Assembly (NCBI GenBank): GCA_031270075.1
Contig: JAISYG010000022.1
Span: 1-50,381, forward strand
Origin: Dysgonamonadaceae bacterium
GTDB lineage: Bacteria > Bacteroidota > Bacteroidia > Bacteroidales > Azobacteroidaceae
Direction: 5' to 3'
Length of the DNA stretch: 50,381 bases
Below the pieces are notes generated by a model that saw only the letters and a program-made list of their open reading frames with translations, did no database searches and had not been told where the DNA came from. How positions within the stretch are numbered: position 1 is the first letter of the stretch; each line of letters opens with the position of its first letter. Shown in pieces: positions 38,885-50,300 of the stretch. The position numbers were made by a program, and so were the translations under genes.

Positions 38885-41800
38885 ATGAAGCAATTCTTTT
38901 TACTTATCACCTGCGGCCTGATGTTAACCGCGATAACGACAAGCGCACAAACGCGCTCGCTTACATGGAGGTTAAACGAAGATACGCTTACCGTTAGTGG
39001 AAACAAGTATCCATTTGCAAAAGACCGGGAGCCGACGAAGGTAGGTTACGCTTCTATGGCATCAGAATCGGAAACCGGTTATTCCGCTACGCAAGGCGAA
39101 CCTCCATTCGCCAAAGACCGCGTACTCGTACAATTGGCAAACACACCGGCAATGCAAGCAAGGATGTCCGGTCCCGGCACAGCACAACGGGCACCGGATC
39201 TTGGAGTAGGCTTTTCCGAATTACGCCTGCTCAACCCGTCTAAAGGGAACACCAACATCGGCCATTTTTCTACAATGAACGTCAACGATAAGCAAAACAA
39301 TGTGTACGTTCTGACACTGAAAGAAACCGGCGAAAATGCCGTAGAAAGGGCATTGAAGATACTCAACGCCAATCCGGCAGTCGAAATAGCCGAACCCGTT
39401 TTTTATTATACACTCTACACCACACCGAACGACCCGCTGTTTCCGCAGCAATACGCACTCAATAAAATCAACGCACTGCAAGCATGGGAAATGACAACAG
39501 GCAGCAACAGTGTAGTTGTTGGAATCATCGACTCCGGCATCGACGGTACGCAGCCCGATTTGTCCGATAATCTTTGGACGAATCCCAACCCCAACCAAGG
39601 CGGATATGTGAACGATATACACGGCTACGATTTTGTCTATCGCCGAAGCGGCACTCCGGCGGATATGGGCACACACGGAACGCATGTTGCAGGTATTATC
39701 GGCGCCAAAGGCAATAATGGAACAGGAATTACCGGCGTTAACTGGAATGTAAGCCTGGCCTGGTTAGGTATTGGTATCGATGGAATGTATGTATCGTCCG
39801 ACGCTGCCATTGAGGCGTTGAATTATGCCAACAACCATCATATTAAGATAACAAACAACAGTTGGGGCGGTGAAGGTTACTCCGCATTATTGGAAGACGC
39901 TATCCGCAATTACAACGGTTTGTTTGTGGCAGCCGCAGGAAATAACGGAACGAACAACGACAATCGGCCTTTTTATCCATCCGCTTACAACCTTCCCAAT
40001 TTGATTGCCGTAGCATCAACCGACCCGGACGACAATCGGTCGCCGTTTTCAAACTACGGAGCAAACAGTGTGCATATCGCCGCTCCGGGCAGTGCTGTTT
40101 TGAGTACCATCGTAAACGGTCAATACCAAGAAATGAGCGGCACATCTATGGCTGCGCCGCATGTAACGGGAGTGGCCGCTTTAATGCTATCCGTCAATCC
40201 GAATGCAACAGCCTCCCATCTGAAAAGTGTTCTTATCCATAGCGCCGATACCATTACCATGGCCACACCATACGACGGAACACAACAGATAGGTCGGCTG
40301 AATGCTTCTAAAGCCATTCGAGGCATATTGACTTCCGTTCAGGATTTGACATCCGGCGTTTCGGGTTACAGTGTAACTTTGAATTGGCAAGCGCCTATTG
40401 ACGCAACCGGTTTACTTGGTTATCGCGTGTATCGCGACGCTACCCTTTTGACTCCTGCCAATATACCTGCCCTGACCTATACCGATACCCATGTGCCCAA
40501 TGGCATTTATACTTATACCGTAACCGCTGTCTATGCCAATGGCGAAACAGCCTCTCATTCCCTATCGGTAACCGCAGGCTACATCATCACCATTACCACC
40601 CAGCCCGCAGCCAATACACTTGTTGTAGACGGCAGTATCACCGGCAGCTTATCGGTAGCAGCCACGGTTACACAAGGCATTCCATTAAGCTATCAATGGT
40701 ACAGTAATATTGCATACAACAACGAAGGCGGCACACCAATCGGTGGAGCAACCCATGCAACATTCGATATACCCGCCACGCTCACGCCGGGAATCTATTA
40801 TTATTTCTGCGAAGTAAGCGCTGTGGGCGCCACCGCCGTCCGTTCAAAAGCAGCAACGGTAGGAGTAGCAGGTATCGGCCCTGTGCCTTATCTCGACGAA
40901 AACGGCCACATCCAAAACGTGGAGGCAACTACTTTAACCGGGGCGGAAACCACTTTAATCGGCGGCTGGTATTTCGTTCCCTCCGATATTACCTATTCCG
41001 AACGGCTTACAATATCCACTCCAGACAATAGCACGGTGGTTATTATCCTCGGCGACAACGCCCATATGGATGCAAGAAACGGCGGAATCAACGTTGGCGA
41101 AGGCAACAATCTGCGCATCTACGCCCAGTCCGAGGGCGCAAACAGTGGCAGGCTTACAGCCAATGGCGGCGCCGATCAAGCGGGTATAGGCGGCAATGCT
41201 CAGAGCGCCGGCGGTTCCATAAGCATTGTTGGCGGCAGAATCACGGCAAACGGCGGCGGTCTCAATAGCGGCGGCGGAAGTAATGGCGGCGCCGGTATTG
41301 GCGGTGGCGGCGGATACGATTTGGTCCATAGTCCCGTATTCGGCTGGTCGGGCGGCGCTATAAGCATCTCGGGCGGCGAAGTATACGCAAGTGGCAGTTG
41401 GGGCGGTTCGGGTATCGGCTGCGGTGGCGGCAGTTGGAGTAATACCGAAGGGTCTGTAAGCCTTACCGGCGGCACAATTACCGCAAGGGGCGGTAATTTC
41501 GCCGGCTATGGCATTGGTGGTGTAACCATTAGCGCCATTGGAGGCAATGCCGTTCTCATTTCCTCATCCATCGATTACGACTATTCCATTCAACCCGCCC
41601 TTCCCGCCGGCGACAAGCTGGGGTCTGCTATTGTTTATGATAACGGCATGGGAACGATGTACGGCCATGTGAGCCTCGCACGCAATGTTACCACTCCCGC
41701 AAGCAGCAGCCTCTTTGTTTGCAACGGCCAGACCCTGACCATTCAAAGCGGCTACACGCTGATCAACGACGGCGCCATCATTGTCAACGGCGGAAGTGTT

Positions 41801-43519
41801 GTGGGAGCCGTTGCCGGTAATCTGCCCGCCGCTCCCGCATTGACCGTTTCGGGAAGTCCGGCTTACAACTATTCGTGTTCCGGCGTTCTTGCCATCACCG
41901 GCAATGGAACCTATAGAATAGGTATGCGCGACGGCGCCAGCCTTACTACCTCGGAACGCATCGCAGTTTTACCCGGAGTAAACGCCGATATTACCCTCTC
42001 CGATGTAAACATCGACCTGAGCAGCCATACCGGCCTGAGCGCCTTCGATATGACCGGAGCCAATGTCAATCTTACCCTTACCGGCACCAATGTTCTCAGG
42101 AGTGGGAATAACCGCGCCGGACTGGAAGCGCCTTTGGGATCCAATCTGTTGATCACCGAAGCCAGCACCGGCTCCCTCACCGTATTCGGCGGTAATTACG
42201 GCGCAGGTATCGGCGGTCGCGGAGGAGGTTGGACACCCGGCATCGCCACCTGCGGCCACATCCATATGGCCGGCGGCACGTTAACGGCCACTGGAGGCTT
42301 TGCCGGAGCAGGCATCGGTGACGGTCAGAATGCTCAATCGAATGGAGAGATAAGCATTTCAGGAGGAACCCTAACGGCTATCGGCGGTCTCGGAAGCGCC
42401 GGTATCGGCGGCGGTCAGGCGGGCAATTCGGTTGTTACCATCCATATTTCAGGTGGAACGGTAACAGCAACCGGCAGCACAGTTCGCTTCGATTCCCCCA
42501 ATATCGGCGCCGGTATCGGCGGTGGCAATAGCAATGGTGCTACGGCTATCAACATCACCGGCGGCGCCATTAACGCCCAATGCACCAATGCCGACGTTGC
42601 CGATGACATTGGTACCGGACAAAGCGCAGCCGAAATCCCGGACATAAGCATCTCCATCACCGGCGGCTCGGTATTGGCAGCCAACAACCGCATCTCAGAC
42701 CGGTGGGCGGACGAAACAAGCCGTTATCCCGTAAAAGTTACAGTACTCGATTCCAGCAACGGCAAAACAGACGGTGCCACCGTCGTGCATAGCAATTACA
42801 CAGGACAGATACTGACGGGCGGCAATTACGCCACTACCGACTTCACCACACCCGACCCCGGCGTTGCCTGGCTTTGGCTTCCGGCAGGCAGTCAGACCAT
42901 CGGGGCGAATAAAGACACTTCCGGTGGGAGCAACACGGTCGACGTCTTACCCTCGGGCGACAACAACGATATAAGCATTGTCCTCACCACCGGCGATATA
43001 GCAGTTTATAATATCACAAACCTGCCGGCAGAAGCCATTGCAGGCACACCGCTAACACTGTCGGGAACCGTACAGCCGATCAATGCCACCCACCAAACCA
43101 TTGAATGGAGCATAGTCGACGCAGGCACAACCGGCGCAACCGTATCGGGACATACATTCAATGCCACGGCAACAGGAACAGCCACCGTCCGGGCAACCAT
43201 TGCCAACGGCTTGGCGCAGGGAATTTCCTACACACAGAACAGCATAATACAAGTAAGCTATGGCACAAGTATAGCCACTCGCGACGCACCGCTTGCCCGC
43301 ATATACCCCAATCCAACCGACGGCAGATTTACGCTGCAACTGAATGCAACGGGCAAACGTACTGTTACCCTGAGCGATCTGTCAGGCAAAACATTGCTCA
43401 GGCGAACAGAAACAGACCGAAGCATTCAAATGGACATTAGCAATTATCCTTCCGGCCTGTACCTGCTGGCAATTGATGACTGCAAACAACTGATCACCAT
43501 GCAGATAGTAAAGAATTAA
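38885..43519 (+). CDS. Secreted subtilisin-like (S8) protease with Gly-rich repeats and T9SS sorting domain
   Basis: A 1544-aa multidomain exoprotein. Order: signal peptide (1-21, ending ITTSAQ); propeptide-like region to about 190; S8 catalytic domain with D216 (GIIDSGIDG), H264 (THGTHVAGI) and S421 ([10 protein letters not shown]); a fibronectin-III-like domain (about 490-560); Ig-like segments; two tracts of repeats (about 750-880 and 1100-1240) built from (A/G)GIGG followed by I-x-I-x-GG-x-(I/L)TA-x-GG; another Ig-like domain (about 1380-1460); and a type A C-terminal sorting domain from [14 protein letters not shown] to the end IVKN, used for export by the type IX system. The repeats may form a beta-helix. 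The 3' end overlaps trpA by 26 bases on the opposite strand. Confidence 0.88.
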
Positions 43520-47279: not shown

Positions 47280-48686
47280 TTAATTGATAATCTTTTCCGC
47301 CTCATCAATCGCTTTCTTCAAAGCGCCGAGCTTGTTATTGACCTCCTGCCATTCGGATTCCTCGTTGGAACGCGACACAATGCCAGCGCCCGCCTGATAA
47401 TACAACACATTGTTTTTGCTGATAAACGAGCGAATGGTTATGGCTTGATTCAAATCGCCGTTTAGCCCAATGTAGCCGATGCAGCCGCCGTAAGCACCAC
47501 GATTGTGGGGTTCGATGTCGCGAATCAGTTCCATGGCACGGATTTTCGGCGCACCGGAAAGCGTTCCCGCCGGAAACGTATCGGCGTAGATGCGAATAGT
47601 GTTTTTGCCTTCTTCCACTTCACCCTCCACGCGTGAAACCAAATGGATGACATGCGAATAATACTGTACCTCCTTGAAGAAATCGAGATGCACGTTGCGG
47701 GTATTCCGGCTTAAATCGTTGCGCGCCAAGTCGACCAGCATCACGTGTTCGGCGTTTTCCTTGGGGTCGGCCAGTAATTCCTGCACCAATGTTTTGTCCT
47801 TCTCGTCGTCGCCCGTACGACGGAACGTACCGGCAATCGGGTCGATATAGGCCCTGCCTTTGGCGATGCGGCAATGTGTTTCGGGACTGGAACCGAAAAT
47901 ACGGAACGAACCGAAATCAAAATAAAACAGGTAGGGCGAGGGATTGATCGAACGCAAGGCCCGGTACACTTTGAAATCATCGCCGGAGAAAGCCTGCGAG
48001 AAACAGCGCGACAGCACAATCTGAAACACATCGCCGCGTTTGCAATGGGCAATGCCCCGGCGTACCATTTCTTTGTACTGCGCATCGGTAACGGTGGCTT
48101 TTTCTTCGCCCTTCGCGCTAAAATTGTAAGAAGCATAATTCCGGTTGTTCAGAATAGCCATCACCTCGTCCATCCGGCTTGCTTCGCCTTCCTGCAAGTT
48201 TTCCACAATCGTCAGTTCATTTTTGAAATGATTGACAACCACAATGTACCGGTAAAAAAGGTACAGGATACTCGGAATGGAACTGGCCCCGGTTTCCTGT
48301 TTCTCCGGGTCGATTTCGTCGAAATACTTCACGGCGTCGTAGGCGGTGTATCCGAAGAAGCCGTTGAAGCCGGTAGGATTCCGGTCGTCAGTAATTTCAA
48401 AAGAATGGATAAAGCGATCTAACTGCTCCACCACAGAGGGTTGAATGGATCGGATCTCCGTTGTTCCGTCGGGATAGGCCAAACGGATGGTTCCCTCTTT
48501 TGCCTCGAACCGCGCAATGGGATGCAGGCCGATGAACGACACCGAGTTTTCGTTCCCGTGGAAATCCGAACTCTCGAGCAATGCCGATTCCGGATAAACA
48601 TCCCGGATGCGTAAATAGATACTTACCGGCGTCTGCAAATCGGCAAGAATGGTTTTGCTTCGCGTGTGAATAACTGTTTTCTTCAT
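47280..48686 (-). CDS. trpE: Anthranilate synthase component I
   Basis: Makes anthranilate from chorismate and ammonia. The 468-aa protein has the chorismate-binding C-terminal domain with GDVFQIVLSRCFSQ, IFGSSPETHCRIA, DPIAGTFRRTG, and FPAGTLSGAPKIRAMELI. The N-terminal motif ALLESSDFHG corresponds to the LLES site of tryptophan feedback inhibition. As the first structural gene after the attenuator it is controlled by both enzyme inhibition and (inferred) attenuation. Confidence 0.95.
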   Translation of the reverse strand: MKKTVIHTRSKTILADLQTPVSIYLRIRDVYPESALLESSDFHGNENSVSFIGLHPIARFEAKEGTIRLAYPDGTTEIRSIQPSVVEQLDRFIHSFEITDDRNPTGFNGFFGYTAYDAVKYFDEIDPEKQETGASSIPSILYLFYRYIVVVNHFKNELTIVENLQEGEASRMDEVMAILNNRNYASYNFSAKGEEKATVTDAQYKEMVRRGIAHCKRGDVFQIVLSRCFSQAFSGDDFKVYRALRSINPSPYLFYFDFGSFRIFGSSPETHCRIAKGRAYIDPIAGTFRRTGDDEKDKTLVQELLADPKENAEHVMLVDLARNDLSRNTRNVHLDFFKEVQYYSHVIHLVSRVEGEVEEGKNTIRIYADTFPAGTLSGAPKIRAMELIRDIEPHNRGAYGGCIGYIGLNGDLNQAITIRSFISKNNVLYYQAGAGIVSRSNEESEWQEVNNKLGALKKAIDEAEKIIN

Positions 48687-48707: not shown

Positions 48708-48739
48708 AAAAAAGCCTGTCGTGAGTACGACAGGCTTTT
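48708..48739 (-). terminator. trp attenuator terminator hairpin
   Basis: In the RNA, AAAAGCCUGUCGU (from 48739 to 48727) pairs perfectly over 13 bp with ACGACAGGCUUUU (48722-48710) around the loop ACUC, followed by six U (48713-48708, partly in the stem). It lies between the leader peptide and trpE, 21 bases before the trpE start codon, so it can only act on trpEGDCFA. Confidence 0.9.
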
Positions 48740-48810
48740 CTGTATTTTCAAACCAATATATCTTCGACTCACGACTTTTGAAGTTGAGAGTGCCACCACC
48801 AAGATATATT
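48718..48810 (-). promoter_or_regulatory. Alternative RNA pairings of the trp attenuator
   Basis: In the RNA the strand GUCGUGAGU (48775-48767), which contains the leader-peptide stop codon UGA, is fully complementary to ACUCACGAC (48726-48718), the loop and first half of the terminator 3' arm; this would be the antiterminator. A second pair, AAUAUAUCUU (48810-48801), immediately before the Trp codons, with AAGAUAUAUU (48764-48755), is a perfect 10-bp match enclosing the antiterminator strand. A ribosome stalled at Trp codons would open the latter and allow antitermination; one reaching the stop codon would cover the antiterminator. Mutual exclusivity is seen; function is inferred. Confidence 0.75.
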
Positions 48811-48825
48811 TACTATTGCTTTCAT
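48769..48825 (-). CDS. trpL: trp leader peptide with three tandem Trp codons
   Basis: An 18-codon frame encodes MKAIVNISWWWHSQLQKS. The three adjacent TGG codons (48793-48801) in such a short frame, located after a promoter and before a terminator upstream of trpE, are the hallmark of a tryptophan-sensing leader. The stop codon UGA sits inside the antiterminator strand. The ATG is preceded by an A-rich stretch without Shine-Dalgarno sequence, usual in this phylum. Too short for automatic detection. Confidence 0.85.
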   Translation of the reverse strand: MKAIVNISWWWHSQLQKS

Positions 48826-48841
48826 TTTTTTAATAACGGGG

Positions 48842-48871
48842 CAAAATTACAAATAAATTTTATATATCCAA
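48842..48871 (-). promoter_or_regulatory. Promoter of the trp leader/trpEGDCFA transcript
   Basis: On the minus strand TTG (48869-48871), a 19-base spacer and TAATTTTG (48842-48849) match the Bacteroidetes consensus. It starts 7 bases after the trpB stop and would produce a leader RNA of about 15 bases before the leader-peptide ATG. Confidence 0.65.
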
Positions 48872-48898
48872 CTATTTTTTATATTTTTTTGGTTGAAT
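48842..48898 (-). repeat. Duplicated promoter/dyad block, downstream copy
   Basis: This 57-base block aligns without gaps to 50094-50150 with 48 identical positions. It contains the promoter elements and a dyad (CAACCA … TAGTTG on the minus strand). It overlaps the last codons of trpB, so the TrpB C-terminal residues are encoded within it. Confidence 0.7.
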
Positions 48899-50081
48899 TT
48901 TCGATTTTAGAATACGTTTCCATATCCTTATCGCCACGACCGGAAAGGCAAATAACGACTACATCTTCCGGCCGGAATATTTTCTTTTTCAGTACACCCA
49001 GTGCATGAGCCGATTCGATGGCAGGAATAATGCCTTCCAATTGGGTTAACTCGAAAGCGGCATTCATCGCCTCATCATCGGTAATCGCCCATACTTCCGA
49101 ACGGCCGGTTTTGGCTAAATGGGCGTGCAAGGGGCCGATACCGGGATAATCCAAACCGGCGGAAATGGAATAAGGTTCTTCGATTTGCCCGTCATCCGAC
49201 TGCATCAGCAAGGTTTTGCTACCGTGGATAATGCCCAATCGTCCTAAGTGAATGGTAGCCGCCGACTGTCCGGAATCCACGCCTTTGCCGGCCGCTTCGG
49301 TCAATACAATACGGACGGACGGCTCGTCCAGGAAATGAAAAATCGTTCCGGCTGCATTGCTGCCGCCGCCCACGCAGGCAATGAGGTAGTCGGGCGTTTC
49401 CCGGCTTTCTTTTTCCTGCAACTGCCATCGGATCTCCTCGCTGATAACCGATTGCAGCCGGGCTACCATGTCGGGATAAGGATGCGGCCCCACTGTCGAA
49501 CCGATAATGTAATAGGTGTCCGAAGGGTGGGAGCACCAGTCGCGGATGGCTTCGTTGGTAGCGTCTTTCAACGTCCGGTTGCCGCTGGTAACGGGTATGA
49601 CTTCGGCGCCCAGCATGCGCATTCGTTTTACATTCAGGTGTTGACGGGACACATCCGTAGCGCCCATATACACCACACACGGCATGTTCATCAGGGCGCA
49701 GACCGTGGCGGTGGCTACGCCGTGCTGTCCGGCGCCTGTTTCGGCGATAATCCGGGTTTTGCCCATGCGGCGCGCCAGCAGAATTTGCCCGATGGTGTTG
49801 TTTATTTTGTGTGCGCCGGTATGGTTCAAGTCTTCCCGTTTCAGGTAGATACGACAATTGTAGCGGTTAGAAAGTCTTTGGGCCAAGTAGAGAGGCGAGG
49901 GGCGTCCGACATAGTCCCGCAAGAGGGCGTGGTATTCTTGTTGAAACTGCGGGTCGTCCAGCACTTTCCGGTAATTGTTTTTCAGGTTTTCGACACTGGC
50001 GTACAGGATTTCAGGGATATAGGCGCCGCCGTATTCCCCGTAAAAACCGTTTTCATTTACGTTGTATGGTTGCATATTCAA
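48879..50081 (-). CDS. trpB: Tryptophan synthase beta subunit
   Basis: A PLP enzyme joining indole and serine to tryptophan. The 400-aa protein has GFYGEYGGAYIPEIL at the N-terminus, the PLP-binding K92 in LNHTGAHKINNTIGQ, the phosphate loop GGGSNAAG, and the ammonium-type C-terminal signature LSGRGDKDM. It is the first trp gene with its own promoter and is separated from trpE by the attenuator, so its expression should escape leader-based control. The C-terminal tail after ME (TYSKIENSTKKI) is partly encoded in the duplicated promoter block. Confidence 0.96.
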   Translation of the reverse strand: MNMQPYNVNENGFYGEYGGAYIPEILYASVENLKNNYRKVLDDPQFQQEYHALLRDYVGRPSPLYLAQRLSNRYNCRIYLKREDLNHTGAHKINNTIGQILLARRMGKTRIIAETGAGQHGVATATVCALMNMPCVVYMGATDVSRQHLNVKRMRMLGAEVIPVTSGNRTLKDATNEAIRDWCSHPSDTYYIIGSTVGPHPYPDMVARLQSVISEEIRWQLQEKESRETPDYLIACVGGGSNAAGTIFHFLDEPSVRIVLTEAAGKGVDSGQSAATIHLGRLGIIHGSKTLLMQSDDGQIEEPYSISAGLDYPGIGPLHAHLAKTGRSEVWAITDDEAMNAAFELTQLEGIIPAIESAHALGVLKKKIFRPEDVVVICLSGRGDKDMETYSKIENSTKKI

Positions 50082-50093
50082 TTATTTATGAGC

Positions 50094-50123
50094 CAAAAGT
50101 ACAAATTAATTTTTAATACCCAA
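50094..50123 (-). promoter_or_regulatory. Promoter of trpB
   Basis: On the minus strand TTG (50121-50123), a 19-base spacer and TACTTTTG (50094-50101) match the Bacteroidetes consensus and lie 12 bases before the trpB ATG at 50081. No leader peptide or terminator lies between. Confidence 0.65.
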
Positions 50124-50150
50124 CCATTTTTTATATATTTATGGCTGAAT
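50094..50150 (-). repeat. Duplicated promoter/dyad block, upstream copy
   Basis: Gap-free partner of 48842-48898 (48/57 identical). Contains the dyad CAGCCA … TGGTTG (minus strand) next to the -33 element, a possible operator for a tryptophan-responsive repressor. Confidence 0.7.
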
Positions 50151-50165
50151 CTTTGATTTCACAAT

Positions 50166-50300
50166 ATGGAACGGCAAATTTTTGAGAGTATCCGTCAACT
50201 TAAACGTGAATTGATACCCAACGAGCGTTTCAATTTGCTATTGGATTGGAAAATTGTTGTTCCCCAATGCCTCAAAAATGTCATTGACATCAATGGTTGA
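50166..50300 (+). pseudogene. Short frame resembling a nucleotidyltransferase N-terminus
   Basis: A 44-codon frame reads MERQIFESIRQLKRELIPNE before becoming unrecognisable. The first 20 residues resemble the start of small MNT-type nucleotidyltransferases, which continue with a GS motif and paired Asp; both are missing here. It is probably a truncated remnant; a real small protein is possible. Low certainty. Confidence 0.25.

Follow-up and report, generated by a model that had tools for sequence, protein, structure and literature searches.

In the window (the whole 50,381-nucleotide stretch of DNA analyzed), the spacer between trpB and trpE very probably holds a ribosome-mediated transcription attenuator that is homologous to the Rfam family RF01692, controls trpEGDCFA, and uses an antiterminator directed at the loop and 3' arm of the terminator. 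The anatomy, conservation, pairing, covariation, and geometry of this element were observed directly in the window and its relatives. Attenuation by tryptophan is a textbook system; its counterpart in Bacteroidota is little described. Our literature search of main article texts found no mechanism for trp attenuation in this phylum. The term "Bacteroid-trp" occurs in PMC4977773 and PMC6414381. In the parts of the papers that were consulted, the RF01692 family is named in one table row of PMC2864571, and PMC7366714, PMC4833913, and PMC2965389 describe no Bacteroidota trp attenuator.

The minus-strand segment 48708-48871 contains a promoter-like box, a leader open reading frame (ORF), an upstream hairpin, a terminator, and a 9-nt antiterminator strand. 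The predicted promoter (48842-48874) combines a -33-like TAGTTGG (48874-48868) with a -7 box, TAATTTTG (48849-48842), that matches TAnnTTTG; this motif, together with its spacing, is what we take to be the promoter consensus, and the prediction is based on it. Transcription is expected to start near 48836. The leader ORF (48769-48825) encodes the peptide MKAIVNISWWWHSQLQKS, with three tandem Trp codons at 48801-48793 and a TGA stop codon at 48771-48769. In the minimum-energy fold, strand 1 of the upstream (protector) hairpin, AATATATCTT (48801-48810), which lies inside a paired region of RF01692, forms a 10-bp pairing with strand 2, AAGATATATT (48755-48764). The intrinsic terminator AAAAGCCTGTCGT-ACTC-ACGACAGGCTTTT (48708-48739) is a perfect 13-bp stem (48739-48710) followed by a U run, with the 5' arm at 48739-48727, the loop at 48726-48723, and the 3' arm at 48722-48710. 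The antiterminator strand, GTCGTGAGT (48767-48775), includes the leader stop codon and is complementary at nine of nine positions to its target, ACTCACGAC (48718-48726), which comprises the terminator loop ACTC and the first five bases of the 3' arm, ACGAC; this assignment is backed by the swap, covariation, and folding tests described below. The leader RNA folds better than expected by chance (z = -4.13; 1 of 200 shuffled sequences was equally good). All these parts, including the 9-bp antiterminator with its embedded stop codon, had been proposed in an earlier, sequence-only reading of this DNA, and each was confirmed in the sequence.

The first gene downstream of the element is trpE (47280-48686), followed by trpG, trpD, trpC, trpF, and trpA down to position 43494, and trpB (48879-50075) lies upstream, with a similar promoter-like sequence of its own; all are on the minus strand. 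NCBIfam matches identified trpB, trpG, trpD, trpC, and trpA above the curated cut-offs, and trpE and trpF as the best matches, but under the cut-offs. At its 3' end, trpA shares 26 bases (43494-43519) with the end of a convergent 1,544-aa ORF (38885-43519), which by eye presumably encodes a subtilase that carries a type IX secretion tail. The closest named relatives by TrpE include records labeled Dysgonamonadaceae, Candidatus Symbiothrix, and Candidatus Azobacteroides. Organisms with these labels inhabit termite guts, and the source is a Bacteroidales bacterium, probably from this habitat.

The RF01692 model (Bacteroid-trp, Bacteroidete tryptophan peptide leader RNA) aligns to the window over all of its positions 1-131 of 131, including the Trp codons and the upstream hairpin, with a score of 46.2 bits (E = 1.4e-4 on 331 bases), which is 2.8 bits short of the gathering score (49 bits). 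A scan of the window with Rfam at gathering thresholds thus yielded no family, because the RF01692 score falls below the cut-off. A genome of the same genus (G018) scores 50.0 bits, and the window element, like the family members that precede Bacteroidota trp genes, has a trp gene, trpE, next downstream. From sequence comparison, the window element is a homolog of RF01692 just below the cut-off, without being filed as a member, and this kind of element is already known; the attenuator suggested by the sequence-only reading is thus not a new kind. Other weak Rfam matches in the window (STnc370, Thr_leader, and others), several of which fall on the terminator hairpin, were taken as chance.

To sample relatives, the RF01692 model was searched against genomes of the order (59 of 393 with a match at E up to 0.01, 21 above the cut-off), of the genus (15 of 38 at E up to 1, 1 above the cut-off), and of a draw from the phylum (42 of 395 at E up to 0.001, 37 above the cut-off). 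All non-repeated rows from the order, genus, and phylum searches (E limits of 0.01, 1, and 0.001, respectively) gave 112 sites. A leader ORF with at least two tandem Trp codons was present at 110 of these, although the model itself contains UGG codons. The same parts as in the window, a Trp leader and a terminator, recur at 107 of the 112 sites (106 unique), a count to be read with the caveat that the Rfam model itself selects Trp codons and the terminator finder selects a stem. The five sites left out are L047, whose contig is cut off ahead of the terminator; L062 and L074, where a terminator is visible by eye and was missed by the finder; and L072 and L076, weak genus matches without a Trp leader (E of 0.38 and 0.30). 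The TAnnTTTG motif occurs within 60 bases upstream of 89 of the 107 leaders, compared with a shuffled mean of 4.6.

Two further cases were not reported by the family searches and stand outside the 107. In L030 (G039), two leader ORFs with WWW are arranged in tandem before one trpE, starting about 325 and 162 bases upstream. A terminator follows each ORF, and on visual inspection each unit contains a strand complementary to its own loop and 3' arm. Upstream of trpE in L010 (G021), inspection by eye shows the leader MPQRVHIYWRWRLSFSRE, whose Trp codons are split (W-R-W), and a terminator of similar type; the genus RF01692 search at E up to 1 found nothing in this genome.

The side of the terminator that is gripped was examined by swapping targets among leaders: the 30 bases starting nine bases after the Trp codons were paired with their own target and with those of other leaders. 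The searches selected for the Trp codons and for the antiterminator strand; since the RF01692 model stops inside the 5' arm, pairing with the loop and 3' arm played no part in the selection. For the 106 unique leaders, own targets comprising the loop and 3' arm were bound far better than swapped ones (-10.25 vs -8.29 kcal/mol; z = -11.5; 0 of 5,000). No preference for the own sequence was detected for the whole 5' arm (z = +1.7), a weak excess was found for the 5' arm with the loop (z = -2.2; 76 of 5,000), and the whole 3' arm without the loop gave z = 0.2, so that the terminator loop matters. The loop and 3' arm stood out within the order (69 unique leaders; z = -8.9, compared with -1.0 for the 5' arm with the loop) and outside it (37 leaders; z = -4.8 and -3.6, respectively). 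With one leader per family from the order set (28 families), z ranged from -4.7 to -7.1, with 0 of 2,000 in each of 50 draws; close relatedness alone is thus an insufficient explanation. Taken singly, 78 of the 107 leaders prefer the loop and 3' arm, 12 prefer the 5' arm with the loop (by at least 2 kcal/mol), and 17 are undecided.

In the E. coli trp attenuator, a leader peptide with tandem Trp codons precedes alternative stems, and the position of the ribosome decides between them. When a like procedure was applied to E. coli K-12 (NC_000913), the known antiterminator was recovered on the 5' arm (-10.9 vs -4.9 kcal/mol); it formed in the stalled state only and was lost once the terminator was fully exposed. 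The method thus detects a 5'-arm antiterminator where one exists. As a comparison within the phylum, 60 of 130 matched places for hisG were taken as loci (L193-L252), and all 60 were scanned. A His-rich short ORF lies upstream in 49, accompanied by a terminator in 38. For these 38 his leaders, z was -8.4 for the 5' arm with the loop, -5.1 for the whole 5' arm, and -3.0 for the loop and 3' arm, in a test that used the whole spacer and is therefore alike, but not identical, to the trp swap test with its 30-base part. Per site, 27 of the 38 favor the 5' arm with the loop, 6 the loop and 3' arm (L196, L199, L202, L209, L213, and L222), and 5 neither.

Covariation was assessed on a 106-row alignment of relatives, an analysis that the sequence-only reading had proposed and that came out in favor of the pairing. 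Eight of the nine antiterminator pairs had changed on both sides (5.5 in shuffled alignments; 6 of 500 shuffles as high), in 43 cells compared with 20.0 (0 of 500). Antiterminator cells were paired in 79.3% of cases, vs 74.4% after shuffling (0 of 500) and at most 38.4% in slid versions. The column of the middle base of the stop codon in the window contains 83 G-C, 9 A-U, and 7 G-U pairs, 5 unpaired rows, and 2 gaps. An A in this column with a letter opposite is found in 10 rows, 9 of them with U opposite, and in 7 of those 9 A-U rows the A belongs, by eye, to an in-frame TAA stop codon. The outer pairs (columns 67, 74, and 75) are disrupted in 38 to 42 of the 106 rows, so the core of the antiterminator comprises about six pairs. 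In the terminator stem, for which the rows had been chosen, 97.4% of the cells are paired, with changes on both sides at all 12 of 12 pairs.

The antiterminator occupies a constrained position relative to the leader codons. Counted from the first base of the last Trp codon, it starts 14 to 25 nt downstream (20 nt in 57 of the 107 leaders) and lies 26 nt from the first Trp codon in 63 of the 107, a nearly fixed distance. With an assumed ribosome footprint of -18 to +13, a ribosome stalled at the Trp codons leaves it clear in all 107 leaders, and one at the stop codon reaches it in 104. Overlap between the stop codon and the 9-nt antiterminator occurs in 74 of the 107 leaders, and by a contiguous-run definition the stop codon lies within the antiterminator at 37 of 70 order sites; the notion that it is always inside was rejected on these counts. 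The built-in stop codon of the sequence-only reading accordingly holds for the window and most relatives as a common feature, but not as an essential one. In two leaders, L033 (G236) and L037 (G408), the frame runs on, with the stop codon 38 nt past the antiterminator start; these may work differently, as a ribosome at the stop codon would not mask the antiterminator by the footprint used.

Folding with the ribosome-covered bases masked distinguishes the states of the leader. In the window, with the ribosome stalled, the fold of lowest energy is the antiterminator pairing as long as 5 to 13 target bases are exposed; with the ribosome at the stop codon, the terminator alone forms; and with no ribosome, the upstream hairpin prevails up to 7 exposed bases, the antiterminator takes over at 9 and 10, and the terminator is favored from 11 onward. 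Across the 107 leaders, folded at eight exposures and counted if antiterminator pairing outranked the terminator at any exposure, the antiterminator came first in 35 with no ribosome and in 5 with the ribosome at the stop codon, the latter count being partly built in, as masking forbids most of that pairing. In the stalled state, it came first in 101 and failed to do so in 6, to be read against a control that is not low (31% with a shuffled spacer). At full exposure, the terminator had formed in 104 (stalled), 107 (at the stop codon), and 107 (no ribosome) of the 107 leaders. Because the fully exposed terminator is the minimum-energy fold in 104 of 107 even when the ribosome is stalled, antitermination must be kinetic; the E. 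coli attenuator shows the same behavior. A point against the attenuator model is that pairing of the antiterminator may still permit the lower part of the terminator stem to form, as a pseudoknot, which is outside the folding model.

From comparison and folding, we infer how the element would function, that is, its termination, ribosome stalling, kinetics, and the response of the cell. RNA polymerase would start near 48836, and a ribosome would translate the leader. When charged tRNA-Trp is scarce, the ribosome would stall on the Trp codons and cover strand 1 of the upstream hairpin, leaving free the antiterminator, which begins 20 nt downstream of the start of the last Trp codon. The antiterminator could then pair with the emerging loop and the first half of the 3' arm before the stem zips, resulting in read-through. 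When Trp is plentiful, the ribosome would reach the stop codon inside the antiterminator and cover this strand, so that the terminator would form. Without translation, the upstream hairpin would enclose the antiterminator strand, and termination is the likely default. The ribosome-sensed Trp attenuation with a 3'-directed antiterminator envisaged in the sequence-only reading is supported by the swaps, covariation, geometry, and masked folding.

The position of trpB outside the predicted switch is a feature of this genome. In the genome with the most similar TrpE (G019; 92% identical over residues 1-429), the leader is located before trpB; upstream of trpB in the window, the same promoter and start-codon context is kept, without the leader and terminator, and the promoter preceding trpE in the window resembles that preceding trpB. 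On sequence comparison, the switch appears to have been moved or copied, with trpB left outside; how this happened we can only suggest, and a tandem duplication perhaps separated trpB from the attenuator. The window contains near-duplicate minus-strand sequences at 48840-48915 and 50105-50175, i.e., before trpE and before trpB, and the last trpB codons fall within the duplicated stretch. G019 has the appearance of a metagenome bin, so its sequences may come from more than one organism; it contains two TrpE matches (identity to the TrpE of the window, 92% and 77%), with an RF01692 match near each (L063 and L075). A trp gene was matched downstream of 105 of the 107 homologous leaders, the first being trpE in 59, trpB in 42, and trpD in 4; for the other 2, fewer than 500 bases were available. 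The statement in the sequence-only reading that the attenuator spares trpB is thus correct for this genome but does not generalize, given the G019 leader before trpB and the 42 leaders with trpB first.

Several other readings of these sequences were weighed. That the leader is a real Trp attenuator with another sensing route, such as polymerase pausing at the upstream hairpin or Rho, the antiterminator pairing being secondary, seems very unlikely to us: the folding model does allow this pairing with no ribosome in 35 of the 107 leaders, and briefly in the window, but the pairing covaries and the stalled and unmasked states contrast. We regard as slightly less likely still an antiterminator of the classical E. 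coli type acting on the 5' arm, with the complementarity to the loop and 3' arm resulting merely from a leader copy of 5'-arm sequence. The weak advantage of the own 5' arm with the loop (z = -2.2, and -3.6 outside the order), the 12 leaders that favor this side, and the his leaders of the same phylum, mostly on the 5' side (27 of 38), are compatible with it; it is opposed by the contrast between z = +1.7 for the whole 5' arm and -11.5 for the loop and 3' arm, by the pairing energies of the window antiterminator (-15.0 kcal/mol on the loop and 3' arm vs -5.9 on the 5' arm), and by the E. coli control. Pairing with the 5' arm was rejected on the swap tests over relatives together with that control.

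The spaced inverted repeat GTCGTGAGT...ACTCACGAC could also be a protein-binding site in DNA or RNA, given that short conserved arms would covary too if bound symmetrically and that sequence conservation is high. We give this very little credence, as one arm coincides with a terminator loop and arm, and the other follows the Trp codons at a near-fixed distance (26 nt from the first Trp codon in 63 of 107), with the stop codon overlapping it in 74 of 107; both are better explained by ribosome logic. Least probable of all, in our judgment, is that the terminator is a plain 3' terminator of trpB and the leader a decaying remnant. The element directly adjoins the 3' side of trpB and is placed elsewhere in a close relative, but in the window the leader is intact, the stems are perfect, the complementarity is 9 of 9, and a promoter-like box is present; in the relative whose TrpE is closest to that of the window, the element precedes trpB and so is not a trpB terminator by origin, and on this placement the remnant and trpB-terminator interpretations were rejected. 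The preferred reading remains the ribosome-mediated attenuator with its antiterminator on the loop and 3' arm. Such a design predicts that changes in the terminator loop matter and that a change in the antiterminator requires a matching change in the terminator. To win, its antiterminator would have to form faster than a competing stem built on the same target strand, a contest relevant to how nascent RNA folding shapes transcription decisions.

Compared with known systems, the window element shares with RF01692 the leader, the Trp codons, the upstream hairpin, and the start of the terminator 5' arm, and members of that family likewise precede trp genes. The RF01692 consensus ends within the 5' arm and differs in having no antiterminator pairing, which was worked out in the present analysis. 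With E. coli trpL (RF00513, Trp_leader), the window shares tandem Trp codons followed by an intrinsic terminator, although RF00513 is absent among the 20 Rfam matches of the window with E up to 10. Whereas the E. coli antiterminator targets the 5' arm of the terminator, that of the window targets the loop and 3' arm; the stop codon overlapping the antiterminator, seen in 74 of 107 relatives, is a further difference from the E. coli trp attenuator. On sequence evidence, this architecture, unlike the textbook type, appears to recur in most relatives examined, inside and outside the order. The his leaders before hisG belong to the same phylum and have the same leader-then-terminator layout, but mostly use the opposite (5') side, and both architectures seem to coexist in the phylum, most trp leaders using the 3' side. 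On balance, we favor the view that the trp leaders represent a second, phylum-wide attenuation architecture, in which the loop and 3' arm would be captured on emergence, with the loop as the first contact; the stop codon, often in the antiterminator strand, would make the end of the peptide and the closure of the terminator one event, so that a stop-codon base would co-evolve with the terminator, and the his leaders, which show both architectures, would indicate that this topology can be swapped in evolution.
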